NCBI RefSeq assembly: GCF_014202225.1
Contig: NZ_JACHGE010000006.1
Location: 62,001-126,000 of the forward strand
Direction of reading: 5' to 3'
DNA: 64,000 nt
Origin: Algibacter amylolyticus
GTDB taxonomy: Bacteria > Bacteroidota > Bacteroidia > Flavobacteriales > Flavobacteriaceae
Shown here piece after piece: positions 28,330 through 45,454 of the stretch (the stretch's first letter is position 1; each line of letters begins with the position of its first letter). The notes under the pieces were generated by a model that worked only from the letters and a program-made list of their open reading frames with translations, was not told the origin of the DNA and did no database searches. Position numbers and translations under genes: made by a program.

Positions 28330-28397
28330 CAAATATAGAATACAACTGTTGTTTTTATTAGGTCAAATGATTCAATTCTTAGGGGGAATAAATCAAA
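28330..28397 (-). promoter_or_regulatory. Operator and promoter of block A (motif copy 1)
   Basis: The operator at 28357-28397 reads on the plus strand ATTAGGTCAAAT, then GATTCAATTC, then TTAGGGGGAATAAATCAAA. The box CAAATATA (TATATTTG on the transcribed strand) lies at 28330-28337, leaving exactly 26 bp to the operator's TTTG (28364-28367). It is 104 bp upstream of susC. The same layout occurs at 30150-30217, 31462-31530 and 45386-45454. No -33 TTTG lies at the normal 19-bp spacing, as expected for an activator-dependent promoter. The rest of the 462-bp gap 28227-28688 holds only the vestige at 28638-28670. Confidence 0.75.
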
Positions 28398-28637
28398 TTT
28401 AGTCTTTAACCCTAGTAAAACAGACGATTTATAAAAATTCATGCTTATTCTTGATATATTTCTTTTTATTCTTTAAAATCTTTTTTTTGCATTATAAAAC
28501 AATGCACTATACTCAACTTTTTCTAATAAAAATTAGTTAAAATAAAAGGAGATTCCCTACTAAACAAAAACTAACAAAAGCAATTATAATAAGACACAAA
28601 CTTAGCTACTTAAATGCCAACACATTTTAACTAATTG

Positions 28638-28670
28638 TTATATCTTATTTTGAGTGTATCGTTTATATTT
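28638..28670 (-). pseudogene. Vestige of an HTCS 3' end (A)
   Basis: A very short scar. The minus strand encodes KYK, then TQNKI and a stop (28638-28640), matching KYKSKINLQTQTKI-stop of the vestige at 30454-30517. The DNA shares AATTGTTATATCTT with that vestige. It stands upstream of operator copy 1 just as the intact HTCS stands upstream of copy 3. Short, so only moderately certain. Confidence 0.45.
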
Positions 28671-28688
28671 TGACGATAAATAAGTAAT

Positions 28689-29771
28689 CTATTTAATAAT
28701 TAACTTTATACTCTTTACTTGACCTTCAAAATACACTTTAATAAAATATAATCCATTACTTAATTTAGCTGTTTGAGGGTAAGTTTGCACATTGCCTGTA
28801 ATATTAAATTTATCTATTACTTTTCCTTGGATATCAAAAATTTTGCATTCTGCAGTTTGTAAACCATTTGGTAACTTGATTGTTAAACTATCTCCTTGGT
28901 TTAATGGATTTTTAATTACTAATTTATCTTCTTGGTTTATCGAATTTATACTTAAAAAGCAACTTGGATATTGCACTACGTCTGATGGAGGTGATACTTC
29001 TCCATTAACAGCCGGTGGCATTCCAGGAACTCTGTGCCATCTTCGAAACGGAAGTGCATGTAGAATTTTAAAATCTGGTTCCTTAATCTTAATTGCATAT
29101 TTAGGGGTTGATGTGTTTTTATCTTCTCGCGTTAAGGTTGCTGTTTCAAAGCCTGCAGTTTTAATCAAATCAAACGCTTTTTGCATTTTTTCTAAAGCAA
29201 TGTCACCTCTATCATCTATTATTCTTCCTCCTCGAAAACCTTCGGTATAAACAACACCCATCATCCAAGATAAAACCTTACTTCTAGTATCAACTACCTC
29301 AGCTGGAGCTGCAATAATAGGAGATGTACTTTGAGCATGGGTTGGATCAAAGTCCTTAAAAGTACCGTCTGGATGCACCCAAAAAATGATATTATTTAAT
29401 CTTTTTTCTATTGCAGTTCCTTCTGCAGATGTTGGTAGAGGCGTTGTATTTAATTCTTTTTTAATATTTTCATATCGTTCTAGATCCCAGTAGATTCCCT
29501 CTATCCCATATCCATCACCAAAAGCTTCAACCACCTCATCTCTATACTCCTTTATGGCCCAAATTTTACCTCCATGATAGGTAACCCCATCTATTATTTT
29601 ACTATTTTCAAATTTGGCTTCTCCATCTCCAAACCATAGGCCTGTAAATAATGCTGTTTTGTTATAATCAAAGCATTCTTCTTGATTTTGGGCTAGAATA
29701 TTATTACATAATAATATTTGAAAAGTGAAGAACACATATATTAATTGAGGTAATAAAGTACTTTTTTTCAT
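28689..29771 (-). CDS. Secreted T9SS-sorted protein of unknown function
   Basis: A 360-residue exported protein with signal peptide (ends near residue 27, NILAQ) and a C-terminal type IX sorting domain (residues ~285-360, ending LSNGLYFIKVYFEGQVKSIKLI). The central ~250 residues are not recognised. Visible features are WFGDGEAKF, a YWDLERYENIKKEL segment, a WVHPDGTFKDFDPTHAQS stretch and a Pro/Arg-rich FRRWHRVPGMPPA patch. T9SS would place it at the cell surface or in the medium. It lies between two decayed PUL segments and may be the survivor of a deleted unit. No enzymatic role can be assigned. Confidence 0.72.
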   Translation of the reverse strand: MKKSTLLPQLIYVFFTFQILLCNNILAQNQEECFDYNKTALFTGLWFGDGEAKFENSKIIDGVTYHGGKIWAIKEYRDEVVEAFGDGYGIEGIYWDLERYENIKKELNTTPLPTSAEGTAIEKRLNNIIFWVHPDGTFKDFDPTHAQSTSPIIAAPAEVVDTRSKVLSWMMGVVYTEGFRGGRIIDDRGDIALEKMQKAFDLIKTAGFETATLTREDKNTSTPKYAIKIKEPDFKILHALPFRRWHRVPGMPPAVNGEVSPPSDVVQYPSCFLSINSINQEDKLVIKNPLNQGDSLTIKLPNGLQTAECKIFDIQGKVIDKFNITGNVQTYPQTAKLSNGLYFIKVYFEGQVKSIKLIIK

Positions 29772-29867
29772 AATACAAATAATTTAAAGCTAATACTAAG
29801 GCAAATTATTTGCCTTATTTTGAGGGGTTATAAATAACAATGTTTGTCTTGAAAAACTAGAGGATTA

Positions 29868-43500: not shown

Positions 43501-43718
43501 TTAAATTTCCAATTACCGTTAAGAGAATGGTATCTATCAGAATTAATTTTATTTCCAATAATCGCATTTTTTTCACTTTCATATGAAATAGAAGTTGATC
43601 GAGCTGGTAGTTTATTAATACCAAATACTGCAGGATTTTCCCAATCATTATTTTGTGAAAGAATTAAATTTGAAGAAAAAGTGATACATATAATTGATAA
43701 AATTCTTAATATTTTCAT
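40569..43718 (-). CDS. Glycoside hydrolase family 2 protein (beta-galactosidase-like)
   Basis: A LacZ-type enzyme of ~1049 residues. The start at ATG 43718 is chosen because it begins a signal peptide ([20 protein letters not shown]); an in-frame ATG at 43787 would add 23 residues. Domains in order: sugar-binding jelly roll, Ig-like, TIM barrel, Ig-like, and the beta-galactosidase small chain domain (ending [14 protein letters not shown]). The catalytic acid/base is Glu482 in SLGNESGMG and the nucleophile Glu552 in [12 protein letters not shown]. The strong LacZ resemblance suggests a beta-galactosidase, but GH2 in marine PULs can have other specificities. Periplasmic by signal peptide without lipobox. 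Second gene of block B. Confidence 0.93.
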
Positions 43719-43842
43719 TGAATTTAAGTAAGTAGCATCTCTAAAAAATGCTGTTAATAAAACTTGATAGCGGTATTGGAAATACAAATTAATTATAATA
43801 CTATTATTTAAAATTTAAATTAAAAGATGGAATATATTTCCC

Positions 43843-45144
43843 CTATTTATTTACAACCAGTTTTTTAATACTATCTCCATTACTATCTCCCTTTATTCTA
43901 ACAACATAAACACCATTATTTAAGTTTGAGATATTAATCTTGCTATCTATAATTTCATTTGATTGTAAAACTAGTTTACCTGTAATGTTATAAACACTAA
44001 CAGAAGACGCTAATTGATTCAAGCTATTAACATAAAGCACATCTCCTTTAGTTGGGTTTGGATATATTTTAAAAGCTTTGTCATTTGTTACTCCATCTTC
44101 AATATTTAAAGTTACATAGCTAAATTCAGATGCAACATTATCAATAGTTACTGTATCCCCAGCTTCTGCATCTCCTCGAAATCTAAGTCTAAAAAGAATC
44201 TTATTAAATGGTTGAGAAACTGCTTTACTAATTTCTATGGTTTCCCATGTGTTTATAGCATCTATACCTATTGATCCTGAGTTTATGGTTTCAACAGTAT
44301 TATTTGCCGCATCAAAAGTCCTTATAGAAACTTGAAATTGTGCACCAGCATTTGTAGCCATAGCATCTAATTGAGCCGTAACTTCTGATGGATTTACAGT
44401 TTGTCCAAAATCAAAAACCACATTATCTATACTATTACCCTGAGAGGTTATAGGTCCATCAAAAGCAATTTGAATTGCATTTGCACTTCCATTTCCTGCA
44501 ACAGCAGTTGGACTGCTCATAGATACATCTGAACCGTTTAAAGTCCAATCATCCAAAGGGCCTGTTTCAAAATCTGGATTACTAACGTATGCACTTTCTG
44601 ATGTTATTGTTATTAATGTTATTGTTATGCTATCAATTTTAAGCGTTCCAGTAACACCTGTAGCTGCATTTTTATTTGCTCTTAATGAGAACCTTTCAAT
44701 TCCGCCATCCGTATTATCTGTGTTTCTAGGCACATCAAATTCAAATGTAGACATTCCATTGCCAGCAGTAACTATAGGCATTGTAAATGCTATAGACTCT
44801 GCAGCTGTAAAACTAATACTTCCTTCATCTAAATTTACAAATTGCCATTTATCGTTATCTGTAGCATTTTCTGCAACTATGGTAACTCTAATTATTTGAT
44901 TAGCAGCAACTGCTAATAATGGAGCAAAAAATTCGCTTCTTATTTGAGGAAACCCTGTGCCCACTCCTTTGCCCTCAGCAAATAAGAAACCACCCGATGG
45001 GTTTGGTGATGCTACGGATATATCTAATCCTCCATCTGTCCATCCCTCTGTATTATTATCTACATCAAAAGTGTAATCGTTTAATTGTCCTATTGCTAAA
45101 AAAGGTAATACCATTAAAATACATAAAATTGTAATTTTTTTCAT
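43843..45144 (-). CDS. Secreted T9SS protein with carbohydrate-binding-like beta-sandwich domains
   Basis: A 433-residue exported protein: signal peptide (ends near residue 19, LAIGQ), two jelly-roll-like regions (residues ~20-175 with FDVDNNTEGWTDGGLD; ~185-335 with NPDFETGPLDDWTLNGSD) and a C-terminal T9SS sorting domain (~350-433, YPNPTKGD...LNNGVYVVRI). The F-x-x-G-x-x-x-W openings are those of galactose-binding-like and CBM4/9-like modules. No catalytic motif is seen, so it may bind glycan on the surface. It is the first gene of block B, 242 bp downstream of the promoter box of operator copy 4. Confidence 0.78.
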   Translation of the reverse strand: MKKITILCILMVLPFLAIGQLNDYTFDVDNNTEGWTDGGLDISVASPNPSGGFLFAEGKGVGTGFPQIRSEFFAPLLAVAANQIIRVTIVAENATDNDKWQFVNLDEGSISFTAAESIAFTMPIVTAGNGMSTFEFDVPRNTDNTDGGIERFSLRANKNAATGVTGTLKIDSITITLITITSESAYVSNPDFETGPLDDWTLNGSDVSMSSPTAVAGNGSANAIQIAFDGPITSQGNSIDNVVFDFGQTVNPSEVTAQLDAMATNAGAQFQVSIRTFDAANNTVETINSGSIGIDAINTWETIEISKAVSQPFNKILFRLRFRGDAEAGDTVTIDNVASEFSYVTLNIEDGVTNDKAFKIYPNPTKGDVLYVNSLNQLASSVSVYNITGKLVLQSNEIIDSKINISNLNNGVYVVRIKGDSNGDSIKKLVVNK

Positions 45145-45385
45145 AATCTGTTTTAGTTTTTAATTAATAATTTGTTCTTAGTTAATAACCTATTTAGATA
45201 GATTAATTGTAAAAGATAAAATCCTTAACTAAATGCTTAATTTCAAAAACTTATAAAAACAACGACTGTTTTCTTTTAGCGAGAAACATTAAAAATTTAA
45301 ACTTTCTTAATAATTTATTTTAAAATAAATCAAGATTGTCGCTTAGATTTTCTAACAAGTAAATAATTGAGGTATTTTAGATATT

Positions 45386-45454
45386 CAAATATAAATTGCA
45401 CCTGCCAATTTTATTAGGTCAAATGATGCAATCAATAGGGCGTATTAACCAAAA
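45386..45454 (-). promoter_or_regulatory. Operator and promoter of block B (motif copy 4)
   Basis: Operator ATTAGGTCAAATGATGCAAT (45413-45432) continuing CAATAGGGCGTATTAACCAAAA to 45454. The box CAAATATA (minus strand TATATTTG) lies at 45386-45393, 26 bp from the operator TTTG (45420-45423), as in the other three copies. The leader to the first gene (45144) is about 240 bp, longer than for susC. The other part of the 522-bp gap 45145-45666 contains only the weak hairpin at 45520-45536. Confidence 0.72.

Follow-up and report, generated by a model that had tools for sequence, protein, structure and literature searches.

The question raised by this locus is what a short repeated element does and which protein would recognize it. 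In a 64,000-nt stretch of Algibacter amylolyticus DNA (the window: RefSeq assembly GCF_014202225.1, contig NZ_JACHGE010000006.1, positions 62,001 to 126,000 of the forward strand), four copies of a 41-bp site lie around the gene for a hybrid two-component system (HTCS) protein, HTCS1, which is encoded between two gene blocks, A and B; a second such protein, HTCS2, is encoded at the right end of the window. We assign a probability of roughly 0.86 to the reading that the four sites are operators of HTCS1, through which this regulator would co-activate both blocks. A first-pass annotation had already placed the four copies and their TAnnTTTG boxes at positions that proved to be off by one or two bases at most. 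The sites and boxes are the following, each operator being read on the minus strand in the direction given in brackets.

28357..28397, minus strand (28397-28357): operator copy 1, a direct repeat of 21-bp period, heading block A (pattern, matrix and repeat analysis)
28330..28337, minus strand: putative -7 box of copy 1, TATATTTG
30177..30217, minus strand (30217-30177): operator copy 2, within a duplicate of the block A promoter and SusC start, preceding the gene at 28689-29771
30150..30157, minus strand: putative -7 box of copy 2, TAAATTTG
31489..31529, minus strand (31529-31489): operator copy 3, with a degenerate second half-site, a short way downstream of HTCS1, heading a truncated sulfatase open reading frame (ORF)
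31462..31469, minus strand: putative -7 box of copy 3, TAATTTTG
45413..45453, minus strand (45453-45413): operator copy 4, heading block B
45386..45393, minus strand: putative -7 box of copy 4, TATATTTG

The layout is the same in all four copies. On its minus strand copy 1 reads TTTGATTTATTCCCCCTAAGAATTGAATCATTTGACCTAAT, followed by 19 nt and TATATTTG, and the 19-nt gap between the end of the 41-bp site and the box recurs in copies 2, 3 and 4; counted from the operator's second TTTG, the distance to the box is 26 nt in every case, as had been claimed. A matrix built from the four sites scores these sites, which are its own training set, at 47.2-53.5 bits, whereas the next best place in the window reaches 13.7 bits, and this gap argues that the four sites are not due to chance. 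The parts of the layout are far less distinctive. TAnnTTTG occurs 100 times in the window on both strands (about one per 1,280 positions per strand), and the half-site pattern ATTAGGTCAAATNATNC with up to two mismatches is nonspecific, matching 18 places in the genome versus 22 in a reversed control, although its three exact matches are copies 1, 2 and 4. Site and box are therefore required jointly. With up to three mismatches, the 67-bp layout of site and box has four matches in the 4,351,189-base genome, all of them the window copies, and none in the reversed control. All four surround HTCS1 and lie upstream of polysaccharide-utilization locus (PUL) operons linked to the HTCS gene, and many genome copies unrelated to PUL genes, which would have counted against the first-pass annotation, were not found. 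As far as can be read from the DNA, one operator is indeed common to two operons.

The site had been described as a single irregular 41-mer. It resolves instead into two 19-bp half-sites, approximately [A/T]TTGAnTnATTTnnCCTA, set 21 bp apart (half-site 1, TTTGATTTATTCCCCCTAA; half-site 2, ATTGAATCATTTGACCTAA), each site being a tandem direct repeat with a period of 21 bp that is weak in copy 3. The lag-21 identities in copies 1, 2, 3 and 4 are 13/20, 13/20, 9/20 and 12/20, with P-values of 0.003, 0.006, 0.11 and 0.012 when the best lag is compared with shuffles; that best lag is 21 bp in copies 1, 2 and 4 and a nonsignificant 22 bp in copy 3. For 16 HTCSs of Bacteroides thetaiotaomicron, the predicted operators are direct repeats with a mean distance of 21 bp (Ravcheev et al. 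2013, PMC3878776). Like those, the present sites are two-site direct repeats of about 21 bp placed before PUL operons; the earlier operators are likewise conserved across genomes with orthologous HTCSs, and one HTCS may serve several operons (PMC3878776). The half-site sequence appears to differ here from that set, lineage and enzymes do differ, and the distance to the -7 box is fixed here, whereas the terms 'transcription start' and 'TTTG' are absent from the main text of PMC3878776. No statement of a fixed distance between operator and -7 box was found in the literature searched, which left supplements and most subscription papers outside its scope, so that its novelty is put forward tentatively; the available portions of PMC12125979, PMC6874557 and PMC12877422 contain nothing bearing on the question.

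Promoters of the Bacteroidota primary sigma factor (sigma-ABfr) carry TAnnTTTG at -7 and TTTG near -33 (PMC7366714). All four boxes match TAnnTTTG, their placement at -7 being assumed; unlike the sigma-ABfr promoters, they have no TTTG near -33, there being none in the 19-nt operator-box spacers of the four copies, and the operator's edge sits just upstream. The first-pass annotation took the missing -33 element to suggest an activator bound at that point. The sequence of the site does favor an activator there, but the missing element is by itself poor evidence for one, because no -33 motif could be identified in promoters of Flavobacterium johnsoniae (PMC7366714). The start codons lie about 100 to 380 nt from the boxes, and the element might thus be thought to act in the transcript, as an RNA element or attenuator within the leader, and not as an operator. 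We consider this very improbable: what is conserved sits on the upstream side of the promoter-like box, in the direct-repeat arrangement of HTCS operators (PMC3878776).

The reading as an operator gains from its conservation in relatives. The nearest named relative found, Algibacter pectinivorans (L039), encodes an HTCS1 that is 81% identical, and genome G153 (L135) one that is 85% identical. Scored with the window matrix, A. pectinivorans has two sites (39.9 and 22.1 bits), upstream of its orthologues of GH2 and SusC, with TATATTTG or TAGATTTG at a distance of 19 nt. G153 presents sites of 43.7 and 44.2 bits before its orthologues of GH2 and of the block A sulfatase, both with TATATTTG at 19 nt, and a third, weaker one (L135:19666-19733, 18.3 bits) with TAGATTTA at 19 nt. 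Sites are hence conserved before orthologous genes, alongside an orthologous HTCS, in two near relatives and, more weakly, in nine distant ones, and at orthologous sites across genera the spacing is kept and the spacer sequence altered. These results also bear on whether the copies might be alike only by descent, through duplication of a promoter segment, with no selection on a protein-binding site. Copies 1 and 2 do lie inside a duplication of about 400 bp (28049-28442 and 29868-30261, 75% identical) that comprises the block A promoter and the SusC start, and next to copies 2 and 3 there is a remnant or the end of HTCS1. The 41-bp site, however, is 38/41 identical between copies 1 and 2, versus 75% for the duplication as a whole; the match of copy 3 to copy 1 extends over no more than 34 bp, inside the site; the flanks of copy 4 differ, as judged by eye; and orthologous sites persist across genera, with the kept spacing and changed spacer sequence described above. 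There is, in our estimate, hardly any chance that descent alone accounts for the likeness.

Several features of individual sites and relatives deserve mention in their own right. An additional TTTGACCTATTAAG, repeating the end of half-site 2, is confined to copies 1 and 2, where it overlaps the -7 box (28320-28333 and 30140-30153); neither copies 3 and 4 nor the sites seen in A. pectinivorans and G153 have it. It is possibly a repressing third contact, or chance carried along by the duplication. Right behind HTCS1, A. pectinivorans and G153 encode an extra SusC (L039:14404-17484 and L135:2251-5331), which is not found at that place in the window and has a diverged operator with the same spacing and the box TTAGTTTG. 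A weak site in G246 (L136:17821-17888) scores 5.9 bits and has TATATTTG at 19 nt; the ORF of the HTCS1 relative itself starts a little downstream, at 17983, and the site may reflect autoregulation there, or chance.

The constancy of the spacing was also assessed at larger phylogenetic distances. A nine-site matrix, comprising the four own sites and five from A. pectinivorans and G153, was scanned over these two genomes and nine relatives with 46-52% HTCS1 identity. Among places scoring above 5 bits, boxes with at most one mismatch occurred 20 times at 19 nt, five of these being training sites of the matrix, and at most three times at any other distance between 0 and 49 nt. Because this test is circular, a matrix of the four window sites alone was run on the nine distant relatives (17 loci, 326,609 bases). 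At threshold 0, nine exact boxes fell at 19 nt and at most three at any other of 49 distances. For boxes with up to one mismatch, the counts at 19 nt were 30, 21 and 12 at thresholds 0, 3 and 6, compared with means of 10.9, 3.2 and 0.8 and maxima elsewhere of 26, 13 and 4, each of these at 30 nt. In the control, consisting of 15 own-genome loci around other HTCS paralogs (234,006 bases; two loci overlapping the window were left out), no peak was seen at 19 nt, with counts of 8, 1 and 0 at the same thresholds against means of 7.6, 2.1 and 0.7.

The protein to which these sites are assigned is encoded as follows.

31573..35577, minus strand: HTCS1, with propeller sensor, Y_Y_Y, HisKA, HATPase, receiver and AraC-type helix-turn-helix (HTH) domains (Pfam, relatives, HTH alignment)

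The propeller sensor, HisKA, HATPase, receiver and AraC-type HTH domains all score above Pfam cut-offs in this one protein, the domain set that defines an HTCS. HTCS1 had been proposed as the nearest candidate activator, and by sequence it is the likely regulator; nearness is nonetheless a weaker reason for this than the joint conservation of operator and HTCS1 in relatives. In the HTH region, the HTCS1 clade shares MSQS(T/S)LYRKIKSLTGLS and GFNDYKYF in the 8 readable of 12 aligned rows (L127, L128, L132 and L133 were dropped for a wrong reading frame, their longest ORF not being the HTCS), and this signature differs in the nine own-genome paralogs. Another regulator, whether HTCS2 or an HTCS or AraC-type protein encoded elsewhere, might bind the sites instead, given that the genome has nine more loci whose similarity to HTCS1 extends through the HTH region and that HTCS2 begins about 14 kb from copy 4. 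Against this, a search of the other 396 family genomes, G153 included, gave no relative of HTCS2 at E<=1e-300, and HTCS2 was rejected as the regulator since G153 keeps the sites; none of the four sites lies near an own-genome HTCS paralog other than HTCS2; and it is with HTCS1 that the site is conserved. On this comparison of HTCS proteins, we regard binding by another regulator as improbable, though less so than either the leader or the duplication account.

Gel shifts have shown that receiver-HTH proteins of the HTCSs BT4124 and BT4663 bind promoter DNA (PMC11253607). In that case the response-regulator part binds susCD-type promoter DNA with predicted sites, the proteins being from Bacteroides, while HTCS1 is known here from its sequence; the main text of PMC11253607 contains no mention of 'direct repeat', 'half-site' or 'spacing'. 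With direct repeats predicted in the one study (PMC3878776) and gel shifts available for two HTCS promoters in the other (PMC11253607), the site described here is a predicted HTCS operator of a kind already known, of which it is a new member. Its sequence, repeat, spacing, uniqueness in the genome and conservation together with HTCS1 are observed, and from them we infer binding, dimer geometry, activation, transcription starts and ligand. In the proposed mechanism, HTCS1 would sense an oligosaccharide, and the AraC-type DNA-binding domains of the phosphorylated dimer would lie side by side on one face of the DNA, the 21-bp spacing of the half-sites corresponding to two helical turns. If the G of the box is taken as -7, the site would span approximately -74 to -34. 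Its proximal edge would then abut the -33 position, so that the bound dimer would substitute for the -33 element and keep RNA polymerase at the TAnnTTTG box, in a class II-type activation. Blocks A and B, together with the 360-aa gene behind copy 2, would thereby be turned on jointly.

A number of observations lower our confidence in the assignment to HTCS1. Copies 1 and 2, as duplicates, are not independent, and copy 3 has no significant repeat by itself, its second half departing from the others, so that at P=0.11 this copy alone gives no support for the repeat. A relative of HTCS1 at E<=1e-300 was detected in 11 of 397 family genomes, the own genome included. When all 397 were scanned with the consensus pattern at up to two mismatches, matches were obtained in the own genome, in G153 and at one place in G309. 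Of the 11 genomes in which HTCS1 has a relative, only two were thus matched. The nine distant ones, in which the sites have diverged, escaped the pattern; their sites are detected only by the matrix, and many of their boxes carry one mismatch (e.g. CACCTTTG, GACATTTG). One genome, G069, had no place above 5 bits in the nine-site matrix scan. The 30-nt distance nears the 19-nt one for one-mismatch boxes at threshold 0 (26 versus 30) and again ranks second at threshold 3 (13 versus 21). Finally, the two-mismatch match in G309 lies inside an ORF, in a genome lacking an HTCS1 relative at E<=1e-300; with a score of 17.0 bits and no TAnnTTTG at the expected spacing, it was rejected as a true site and taken as chance.

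Evidence for a similar spacing was also sought beyond the HTCS1 clade. Among 54 distinct SusC upstream regions from HTCS loci, the best lag was 21 bp in 15, making it the commonest of the 20 lags tested. Once the HTCS1 clade was excluded, 44 of these regions remained, all near HTCS genes. In 7 of the 44, a lag-21 repeat ends exactly 21 nt before the box (in the register of a 19-nt window), the highest count among 50 distances, and none of 200 dinucleotide shuffles reached this value for lag 21 at 21 nt. Lag 22 likewise yields 7/44 at the same 21-nt distance, and the counts do not exceed 2 for lag 18 and 3 for lag 24. Some of the SusC 'upstream' regions are plainly coding, and codon periodicity, which the shuffles lose, inflates lags 12, 18, 21 and 24; however, the low counts at lags 18 and 24, and the count of 7 at lag 22, which is not a multiple of three, indicate that periodicity alone does not explain the peak. 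Taken together, lags 21 and 22 place the layout in 14 of the 44 regions, including records from Bacteroides, Parabacteroides, Proteiniphilum, Prevotella and Pedobacter. Visual inspection sorts them into about five groups (5 Bacteroides-like, 3 Parabacteroides/Proteiniphilum, 2-3 Bacteroidales metagenome-assembled genomes, 2 Pedobacter and 1 Prevotella), so that with related loci grouped there are fewer independent cases than 14.

A second HTCS clade, composed of the own paralog C2 and 19 relatives, counts on the other side, since a lag-21 scan of its divergent upstream flanks returned nothing at 19-22 nt; the spacing rule is therefore not established for every HTCS. In the alignment of this clade (10 of 20 loci), a conserved element appears in part of the loci, with, by eye, a lag of apparently about 22 and no TAnnTTTG there. 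This element, of a form like AnTTTAnACCC..TTGnCnATTTGTACC, stands upstream of the HTCS gene (flanks of L172, L176, L177, L178 and L182). We give even odds to the general proposition that in HTCS promoters across Bacteroidota a constant 21 nt, counted in the register above, separates the end of the proximal 19-nt half-site window from a TAnnTTTG-like box, irrespective of half-site sequence and with half-sites 21 or 22 bp apart, the dimer replacing the missing -33 contact. If it is true, HTCS regulons and their start sites could be read from sequence alone, and if it extends across the phylum, regulators could be matched to polysaccharide-utilization operons using only genome sequence. The rule can be checked against published transcription-start maps. 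The present case contributes a concrete predicted operator, and a two-operon regulon assigned to one HTCS, outside the gut Bacteroides for which such operators were predicted.

The genes around the sites are arranged as follows.

12190..28226, minus strand: block A, encoding SusC, SusD, an unassigned ORF, a sulfatase, two VPS10/sortilin-like proteins, a DUF3604-like ORF (below the Pfam cut-off) and GH3
28689..29771, minus strand: intact 360-aa protein with a secretion-sorting tail, behind copy 2
30399..31274, minus strand: truncated sulfatase ORF of 291 aa behind copy 3, matching positions 1-193 of the 301-position Pfam Sulfatase model
35729..45144, minus strand: block B, encoding a sorting-tail protein, GH2, two sulfatases and an alpha-alpha toroid protein

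Copies 2 and 3 had been said to head decayed units. This is borne out for copy 3, which heads the truncated sulfatase ORF, but copy 2 precedes an intact gene, which shares 84% identity with its counterpart in Algibacter. HTCS1 shares its strand with block B, whose last gene precedes it by 151 bp, and a terminator scan between the two found none, which is weak evidence; read-through from block B into HTCS1, and hence positive feedback, is possible. A third block (45667-59687), divergent to HTCS2 (from ~59974), encodes a sulfatase, a pectate-lyase-like protein, PL8 with CBM96 modules, SusC/D and GH88; no good operator site was found for it, looking only upstream of SusC and, by eye, upstream of its first gene, GH88. 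GH2 is the first gene detected past the operator in A. pectinivorans and G153; in the window a 433-aa sorting-tail gene (43843-45144) separates the two. Traces of rearrangement are also present. A remnant of the SusC N-terminus lies between copy 2 and the 360-aa gene, and a 39-bp remnant of the HTCS1 3' end is found at 30479-30517 (92% identical to 31595-31633). The adjoining segment 30441-30489 is 78% identical to 28625-28673, and the resulting patchwork of remnants at 30441-30517 points to tandem duplications around HTCS1.

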